DNA of 64,000 nucleotides, taken from NCBI GenBank assembly GCA_001771815.1, contig MEPU01000004.1, forward strand, positions 186,001 to 250,000, written 5' to 3'. Positions within the stretch are counted from its first letter, which is position 1. Each line of letters starts with the position of its first letter. The stretch comes from Bdellovibrionales bacterium RIFCSPHIGHO2_01_FULL_40_29. Its GTDB lineage: Bacteria > Bdellovibrionota > Bdellovibrionia > Bdellovibrionales > Bdellovibrionaceae. The position numbers were made by a program, and so were the translations under genes. Positions 43,406 through 45,290 of the stretch are shown here, in pieces. The notes under the pieces were generated by a model. That model was not told the DNA's origin. It saw only the letters and a program-made list of their open reading frames with translations, and searched no databases.

Positions 43406-43442
43406 AAAGAAAATCTTGGGATTAAGTTGGACTTAATCCCAA
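43404..43442 (-). terminator. Terminator of the subtilase-PilZ gene
   Basis: A perfect 12-bp stem (43416-43427 with 43431-43442, loop TGG) is followed on the minus strand by GATTTTCTTTTT. The last codons and stop of the protease gene are part of the stem. It could also slow mgtE transcription from the other side. Confidence 0.7.
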
Positions 43443-45290
43443 AGTCCATGTGGAAAATTGTGCCCGTAATTGATCTGTGATATTTAAAAATTTAACGCCA
43501 TAAGATTGTTTTTGTGAACACCAAACAACTTCGCCGTCCATTTCCTGATCCAAGCCTTCAATTTTTACTTTGATCTTCTCGCCTTTATTCATTTGAAGCG
43601 TTCCACTAAATGAAACTCCACCCAGTGATAGTGTATCTGAAGCTGTTGTGATCACTTGGTCTCCAATTTTCAAGACTAAATCTTTTGCTAATGTGTAGCG
43701 AGCATACTGACGACGCTGAATTTGTTGCACCTCTAAAGGAGTTTTGCGACGCAGACCCACCGCCAATAACACGGGCAAAAGAATCATTGCCAGTATGGCC
43801 CCTGATGTTCCCATACCGCCACTGGAATCACTGCCTGAACCATCTAGAAAACTAGAAGCCCCTGCTCCCAAAGCTTTTACCAAACCACAGCCACCACCAC
43901 CAGAATCTGTTGGTGCCGAATCCGATGCAACACTTCGCTCGGTCTTATAAACGGGAGTGTAACTTGGATTGTAAGCCGCAGTTCCGGCTTGTGCTATTGC
44001 CGCCTGCGTGGCCAAAAGTGCATTCACGCGGCCACTTGTTGAAACTTTATTAATCAATGACGAAAATGTATTGGTTGAGCTCAGAATAATAGATCGCACC
44101 TGATAACCGGAAAGTTGTGGAGCTTCACGAATCAATAGTGCCGCAAGACCCGCAACAAATGGCGATGCCATTGATGTTCCGGACATCATCTGAAAACACC
44201 CTGGCGATGGACAACCATTTCCAGGAACTGAACTGACGATAGCCACTCCCGGAGCGGCCACATGAACTGTTAAACCATAATTTGAAAAGGACGCTTTATT
44301 GTCAGAATCTGTTGATGCGGCAACAGCAATATTATTGGGAGTATCAAGAGCTGCCGGATACATGGGGGTCGTATCATTATCTGACCCTGAGTTTCCAGCC
44401 GCTGAAGCAATCACCACACCATTGGTATGTGCGTAAGTGTAAGCATCATGCAACGAGCGCGAGTAGGATGAACCTCCCCACGAATTATTGATAACTTTGG
44501 CTCCCATATTCACCGCATAGTATATAGCACTCACAGCGTTGGCTGTTGTTCCAGAACCATTGGCATCTAAAAACTTTAACGGCATAATTTTTATTTTTGA
44601 TTCACGCACGGATGATTGCAAAATATCTTGTCCGACACCCAAAACAATTCCCGCGACATGAGTCCCGTGATCATCATCATCATAAATAGAGCCACTGTTT
44701 GAAACATAATTCCAACCATTAATGTCATCTATATAACCATTTGAATCATCATCCACGCCGGGGGTGCCATTCAACTCGGCCGTGTTTTGCCAAATGGCAC
44801 CTGAATCGGCAAACAGCGCATGAGTCATATCCAAGCCTGTATCGATGACCGCAACAACTGTTTTTGTGCCCTGATTGTAAGGCATTGCAACCGCCCAGGA
44901 ATCAGTCACTTGAACATCTGCATAAGATTGATCGTAGGAATCAAATGCTCCCGGAGCAGTCCCAAAAGGTTGAACCTCAACCGGGTCAATAGTTAACTTA
45001 TAATTGGGCTCTATAAACTCAACCTCAGGATCAGCCCGAAGTTGATCTAAACTTGCCTGAGAGTTGGTTTTGATATGCATCATTGTTGAGCCCCAAAACG
45101 CCTGTTTCACATGAACAGCAGAACCCATTTTTTTGATCAGACTGACGCCCTTACTTAAGCGTGAGTTCGAAGTCGCACCCTTTTGACTTTTAATTTTAAT
45201 AATATATTCACCTTGAACGACTTGGCTCTGAGCATAACCGCTGACTGCTGCAAATATAATTGTCGTCGTAAATAACGCTGCTAAACGCAC
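43422..45290 (-). CDS. Secreted subtilisin-like serine protease with membrane anchor and PilZ-like tail
   Basis: From GTG 45290 the protein has a signal peptide (VRLAALFTTTIIFAAVSGYA), an I9-type propeptide, and an S8 subtilase domain with Asp150 (VAVIDTGLD), His208 (DDHGTHVAG), Asn300 (SAAGN) and Ser373 (SGTSMASP). A Ser/Gly-rich linker leads to a membrane helix (about 496-513) ending in RRK, then a ~100-residue PilZ-like domain with RRQYAR and SLGGVSF; the usual Asp/Asn before the Ser is Thr. Topology would put the protease outside and PilZ inside. PilZ domains bind cyclic di-GMP. A start as early as 45398 is possible but leaves a non-signal stretch. Confidence 0.85.
   Translation of the reverse strand: MRLAALFTTTIIFAAVSGYAQSQVVQGEYIIKIKSQKGATSNSRLSKGVSLIKKMGSAVHVKQAFWGSTMMHIKTNSQASLDQLRADPEVEFIEPNYKLTIDPVEVQPFGTAPGAFDSYDQSYADVQVTDSWAVAMPYNQGTKTVVAVIDTGLDMTHALFADSGAIWQNTAELNGTPGVDDDSNGYIDDINGWNYVSNSGSIYDDDDHGTHVAGIVLGVGQDILQSSVRESKIKIMPLKFLDANGSGTTANAVSAIYYAVNMGAKVINNSWGGSSYSRSLHDAYTYAHTNGVVIASAAGNSGSDNDTTPMYPAALDTPNNIAVAASTDSDNKASFSNYGLTVHVAAPGVAIVSSVPGNGCPSPGCFQMMSGTSMASPFVAGLAALLIREAPQLSGYQVRSIILSSTNTFSSLINKVSTSGRVNALLATQAAIAQAGTAAYNPSYTPVYKTERSVASDSAPTDSGGGGCGLVKALGAGASSFLDGSGSDSSGGMGTSGAILAMILLPVLLAVGLRRKTPLEVQQIQRRQYARYTLAKDLVLKIGDQVITTASDTLSLGGVSFSGTLQMNKGEKIKVKIEGLDQEMDGEVVWCSQKQSYGVKFLNITDQLRAQFSTWTLGLSPT

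Follow-up and report, generated by a model that had tools for sequence, protein, structure and literature searches.

A subtilase of the Bdellovibrionia whose sorting-tag-like tail continues into a PilZ domain

C-terminal sorting tags have, to our knowledge, so far been treated as constitutive zip codes, and we know of no GlyGly-CTERM protein with a cytoplasmic domain. In M. xanthus, the MYXO-CTERM tag is cut in a Cys-dependent manner by a CPBP intramembrane protease, and lipidation and type II export have been proposed (PMC11980579). The GlyGly-CTERM tag, a C-terminal helix with Arg as found on the serine protease VesB of V. cholerae, is handled by a rhomboid, rhombosortase (PMC13393428, PMC11389362). 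For control from the cytoplasm, LapD/LapG provides a precedent, in which cyclic di-GMP governs periplasmic proteolysis from the inside out (PMC3032553, PMC3032545), while Alg44 and BcsA carry a PilZ domain on a membrane protein and direct polysaccharide synthesis or export.

The protein described here is encoded in the window, the whole 64,000-nucleotide stretch of Bdellovibrionales DNA that was analysed, and resembles each of these systems in part. Like the MYXO-CTERM substrates of myxosortase MrtX, it combines a signal peptide, an exported domain, a Cys motif, a helix and an Arg cluster; unlike them, it has GC[GA]-[LMTS]-[VI] instead of the generic GCGC and a folded, predicted cytoplasmic PilZ domain after the Arg cluster, and many of its carriers lack a CPBP protease. 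With VesB it shares the serine protease and the helix-Arg tag, and its genome encodes two rhomboids, of which one scores weakly as a rhombosortase; it differs in its invariant Cys, and the rhomboids lie below the rhombosortase cut-off. As in LapD/LapG, cytoplasmic cyclic di-GMP would control proteolysis beyond the inner membrane, whereas receptor and protease are separate proteins there and PilZ and protease form one chain here, and the protease families are unrelated. Alg44 (4rt0) and BcsA are among the nearest folds found and likewise link PilZ to an extracytoplasmic output, which here is a protease.

A chain with both subtilisin and PilZ has been recorded before: Tripathi and Sowdhamini (2008) give Subt-PilZ NP_969350.1 of B. 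bacteriovorus HD100 as one table entry, under 'Signalling' (PMC2605481). This protein is very probably the orthologue of ours, and the portion of that paper dealing with Subt-PilZ describes no tag, topology, conservation or distribution. Hobley et al. (2012) counted 15 PilZ proteins in HD100 and urged their study (PMC3271064), and Lambert et al. (2010) found three pilZ genes, including Bd2524 and Bd2545, to be down on leaving the attack phase (PMC2797640); either of these two could be the subtilase-PilZ gene. The open-licence literature on Bdellovibrio and MYXO-CTERM yielded a single review, on myxobacteria, and no paper on tags of Bdellovibrio. Both the connection to a tag and the class-wide fixation of Subt-PilZ appear to be new.

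Domains and topology of the subtilase-PilZ protein

The gene runs on the minus strand from a GTG start at 45290 to a stop codon at 43422, the limits that a sequence-only reading had correctly given (Table 1). Its start codon is uncertain, and the reading frame stays open upstream to about 45473; the signal peptide is assigned from the sequence and the modelled N-terminal helix, not by a predictor. We aligned 56 full-length orthologues, 36-67% identical to the window protein, and used them to build an AlphaFold model, in which the propeptide, S8 and PilZ parts are confident and the connecting linkers are of low confidence. Pfam, model and alignment all agree with the order read beforehand: signal peptide, propeptide, S8 domain, Gly/Ser linker, helix, RRK, PilZ.

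Table 1. Parts of the subtilase-PilZ gene (positions in the window; residues of the predicted protein)
Feature	Position	Strand	Basis or remark
Whole gene: exported subtilase, sorting-tag-like tail and PilZ domain	43422..45290	-	622 aa, GTG start
Signal peptide MRLAALFTTTIIFAAVSGYA	45231..45290	-	sequence reading; N-terminal helix 2-16 in AlphaFold model
Subtilisin-type propeptide, about residues 24-102	44985..45221	-	model aligns with pro-subtilisins 3whi and 2z2z from residue 25
Peptidase S8 catalytic domain, residues 141-406; D150, H208, N300, S373	44073..44870	-	Pfam, model, orthologue alignment
Tag motif G-C-G-[LMTS]-[VI], residues 467-471	43878..43892	-	GC in 56/56, next Gly in 55/56 orthologues; also in unrelated exported proteins
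Membrane helix, about residues 496-513, invariant Pro506, then RRK	43752..43805	-	sequence, orthologue alignment, charge
PilZ domain, residues 525-615; R527/R531 = RxxxR; TLSLGG 553-558; Thr553 at Asp/Asn position	43446..43718	-	Pfam, fold, alignment

The protease part matches Peptidase S8 (PF00082, residues 141-406) with 3.8e-51 and 174.5 bits against a cut-off of 21.8, and the modelled propeptide and S8 domain superimpose on prosubtilisin E (3whi) with a Z of 43.1 and an rmsd of 2.3 over 342 residues. The catalytic residues D150, H208 and S373, already read as intact, and the oxyanion residue N300 are invariant in all 56 orthologues, and on these residues an inactive protease is rejected. 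To judge from these residues and the N terminus, the protein is an exported subtilase of the active type.

Between the S8 domain and the membrane helix lies a Ser/Gly-rich stretch with GGGGCG. G467, C468 and P506 are invariant (56/56), and G469 is kept in 55/56. The chain has a single strongly hydrophobic segment, just ahead of RRK. Averaged over the 56 orthologues, the net charge is +0.3 in the 15 residues before this helix and +4.2 after it, and the shift has the same sign in 54 of them. Because the charge is more positive after the helix, the PilZ tail should be cytoplasmic by the positive-inside rule.

What had been read as a PilZ-like tail is a genuine PilZ domain. Pfam matches PF07238 at residues 525-615 with 1.1e-12 and 48.6-53.9 bits (cut-off 22.5), the isolated tail scoring 53.9. 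Structure prediction, proposed beforehand as a check, returned a PilZ fold (AlphaFold pLDDT about 93), and the tail folded alone found 4xrn (E 5e-6) and 5vx6 (MotI/DgrA; 7e-6) in Foldseek with a probability of 1.00. PilZ domains head its matches in the PDB, the majority from structures determined with cyclic di-GMP (4xrn, 4rt0), and a profile built from the tails picks up MotI/YpfA from sequence alone (1e-4). Pfam match, predicted fold and Foldseek together rule out a chance PilZ-like motif.

The ligand signature is kept in all but one position. R527 and R531 (the RxxxR before the barrel) and G557 and G558 (of SxGG) are invariant in the 56 orthologues, and S555 is kept in 53. Position 553 is Thr in 30, Ser in 21, Asp in 3, Asn in 1 and Cys in 1, so that [D/N]xSxxG has its D/N in only 4/56, with Ser in 53/56 and Gly in 56/56. 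The Thr at the usual Asp/Asn position had been correctly noted; the suggestion attached to it, that binding may be lost, is weakened by the prevalence of Thr or Ser (51/56) and by the conservation of RxxxR, GG and the motif Ser. Since Thr or Ser occupies position 553 in 51/56 orthologues, the alignment indicates that it is under constraint, a hydroxyl residue replacing the usual acid or amide: conserved, not decayed. Other PilZ proteins of the source genome vary here too (Thr, Ser, Glu), and the most diverged tails still retain RxxxR and SxGG. Among the genome's other PilZ proteins that were scored, none has a helix directly preceding PilZ with an exported part ahead.

Distribution and history across the class

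All 60 nearest genomes contain a subtilase match, nearly all of them in the full-length form and normally as one copy. Across the class Bdellovibrionia, a strong match was found in 128/144 genomes and runs through PilZ to the end in about 115; the further strong matches are paralogue-only, cut by a contig end, or PilZ-less. Genomes without the subtilase-PilZ protein are mostly 1.2-2.0 Mb in size, or incomplete. Among 369 genomes from elsewhere in the phylum, none of the best ~150 matches listed extends through PilZ, and the closest homologues outside the class, among the matches listed, belong to family f15 and end after the helix. The search for the same domain order in other Bdellovibrionota that the sequence-only reading had suggested thus found it conserved across the class. 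The neighbours mgtE, a DUF502-like gene and a phosphoribosyltransferase-like gene are kept in its genus and in several Bdellovibrio genomes. Class-wide order and conserved synteny rule out a stop-loss fusion in a single genome or an assembly error.

The tree of the S8 part makes the history of the PilZ domain accessible. The PilZ-less f15 homologues fall outside the class, and in-class PilZ-less copies (G012, G039, G069, G124, G125) are scattered among the full-length ones; those of G039 and G125 are the only copy detected in these small genomes. This combination of a PilZ-less outgroup and scattered in-class copies suggests that PilZ was added to a tag able to function in its absence. Most simply, PilZ would have been gained once, at the base of the class, on a pre-existing tag and then lost several times, and these repeated losses imply that the protease can dispense with it. 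A second copy from a family-f1 genome that lacks PilZ (L122, G069:C9:51842-53278) groups with a family-f10 sequence in the tree, which may reflect horizontal transfer.

A tag shared with other exported proteins

The helix is part of a tripartite tail, GC[GA]-helix-Arg, and the subtilase-PilZ protein has all three elements, the invariant Cys motif, the helix and the Arg cluster. We searched for further carriers first with a DNA pattern built on the GCG motif, then with a profile made from 30 tails. Enrichment of the pattern by itself is slight (25 vs 15 for the reversed pattern), and the evidence for a shared tag rests on the profile matches instead. In the source genome, a matrixin (Pfam M10 3.5e-13) ends in GGCGLIK-helix-RHRNFKF (tag profile E 4e-9), and a Gly-rich exported protein of 532 residues ends in GCGTVK-helix-KKLKMIKSQ (E 2.5e-4). 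The 60 genomes of the order add tagged matrixins, Gly-rich relatives, a 2551-residue C25 peptidase protein and LPMO-like proteins, the last by resemblance only (PF03067 18.3 bits, under the 23-bit cut-off). All these other tagged proteins end shortly after their Arg cluster; in the subtilase-PilZ protein the tag is not at the extreme C terminus, and about 100 PilZ residues follow.

The sequence-only reading had feared either a tail without a PilZ fold or a hydrophobic segment cleaved as a sorting signal. The former did not materialise; the latter is now a serious possibility, because GC[GA]-helix-Arg tails end unrelated exported proteins as well as the PilZ-less relatives. Cleavage of this segment would limit PilZ to acting on the precursor or, afterwards, by itself.

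Several carriers deserve mention in their own right. L135:853-1620:+ (G000:C4, about 16.0-16.8 kb) is a secreted matrixin-type metalloprotease with a GGCG-helix-Arg tail and a weak match to the NCBIfam family 'myxosortase-dependent metalloprotease'. L166:28-1623:+ (G000:C9), L185:182-1888:- and L189:310-2115:+ are exported, Gly-rich and about 530-600 residues long, with a GC[GA]-helix-basic tail; a Pfam scan of two of them gave no match. The LPMO-like exported proteins L177, L178, L180 and L181, from family f10 genomes, have the GC[GA]-helix-Arg tail and a His near the likely end of the signal peptide (HIR or HVR). L184:369-8021:+ has 2551 residues, a C25 (gingipain-type) peptidase domain (1.3e-67) and a tag that passes MYXO-CTERM, outside the Myxococcota.

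But which enzyme would process such a tag? Neither the subtilase-PilZ protein nor its isolated tag matched the MYXO-CTERM model TIGR03901 up to E 10, and no NCBIfam CTERM model, GlyGly-CTERM included, matched the tag. The tag of the C25 protein scores 20.5 against the TIGR03901 cut-off of 20, and another tag scores 18.4. No CPBP protease (PF02517) was found in the source genome, which is 99.99% complete, or in 8 of 15 genomes tested. A standard MYXO-CTERM tag with myxosortase is therefore rejected: the model fails on this tag, and CPBP is absent from the source genome and many carriers. Where CPBP is absent, a processing enzyme would differ from myxosortase or be a non-CPBP protein. An adjacent sortase gene was also discarded, the neighbours of the subtilase-PilZ gene being housekeeping-like. 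The two rhomboids of the source genome have rhombosortase scores of 34.8 and 23.2, far below the cut-off of 84. One rhomboid with a subthreshold rhombosortase score (L191, G000:C7:195381-196313:+) has a long N-terminal extension; it is single-copy in most genomes of the class and missing from those reduced genomes in which the tagged subtilase is likewise lacking. It occurs in 107/122 class genomes with the tagged subtilase vs 2/12 without it (at least 85% complete; Fisher p 5e-7), an association confounded by the genomes without it, which are mostly reduced and of one family. Owing to this confounding, a rhomboid as sorting enzyme is only a lead.

What cyclic di-GMP may control

We tentatively favour, as the leading possibility and not yet a probable one, a protease precursor in the inner membrane, with PilZ and cyclic di-GMP acting from the cytoplasm to control its processing or release at the Cys motif. 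The subtilase precursor would cross the inner membrane via Sec, and the MYXO-CTERM-like tail (Cys motif, helix, Arg) would anchor it there with the protease outside. The Cys motif would be the site of modification, of a cut or of both, freeing the protease toward the outer surface, and the PilZ extension at the cytoplasmic end of the tail would read cyclic di-GMP and control the timing or the site of precursor processing and release. Counting against this gated precursor are the replaced Asp/Asn of PilZ, the repeated loss of PilZ, the failure of its own tag against TIGR03901 and the lack of a CPBP match in the source genome and others.

Alternatively, the protein may never be cut and act as a single-pass inside-out receptor, in which cyclic di-GMP on PilZ alters how active or clustered the periplasmic protease is, or how well it reaches its substrates, and the Cys forms a disulfide or carries a lipid. 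Tail and protease stay in one chain across the class, and LapD/LapG sets the precedent for such control. However, in unrelated exported proteins the same helix and Cys motif close the chain, as is typical of processed sorting tags, and the long low-confidence linker would pass on shape changes poorly; we regard this reading as unlikely. PilZ domains can also serve as docking parts, and PilZ might direct the precursor to a site such as the invasive pole or the secretion machinery, or persist after the cut as a membrane PilZ receptor, with no control of the cut itself. In HD100 another cyclic di-GMP receptor, CdgA, occupies the pole that contacts prey (PMC3271064), yet the conserved neighbours are only housekeeping-like, with no partner gene, and we hold placement to be rather more doubtful than an uncut receptor. 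Least probable of all, and in our view improbable, is a PilZ domain that survives as a structural remnant without ligand binding and only stabilises the cytoplasmic end. Its Thr or Ser in place of Asp/Asn and its several losses would suit a remnant, whereas the invariant RxxxR and GG and the nearly invariant Ser, the variation of the genome's other PilZ proteins at the same position and the retention of RxxxR and SxGG in diverged tails speak against one.

Extending the gated precursor to the tag as a whole, a cyclic di-GMP sensor built on a C-terminal sorting tag would gate both the cut and the release of a protease to the surface, the substrate regulating its sorting through its tail, with a tag of the Bdellovibrionota and, in many species, an enzyme that is not a CPBP-type myxosortase. 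We put this forward as possible, with more reserve than the gated precursor itself. The class Bdellovibrionia includes predators that live inside their prey and have many proteases and about 15 PilZ proteins, and cyclic di-GMP controls predatory invasion and exit in Bdellovibrio. Here, a sorting-like tag bears a conserved second-messenger domain at its predicted cytoplasmic end. If the gating holds true, one protein would tie cyclic di-GMP to the timing of a surface protease and offer an entry point to an undescribed sorting system.
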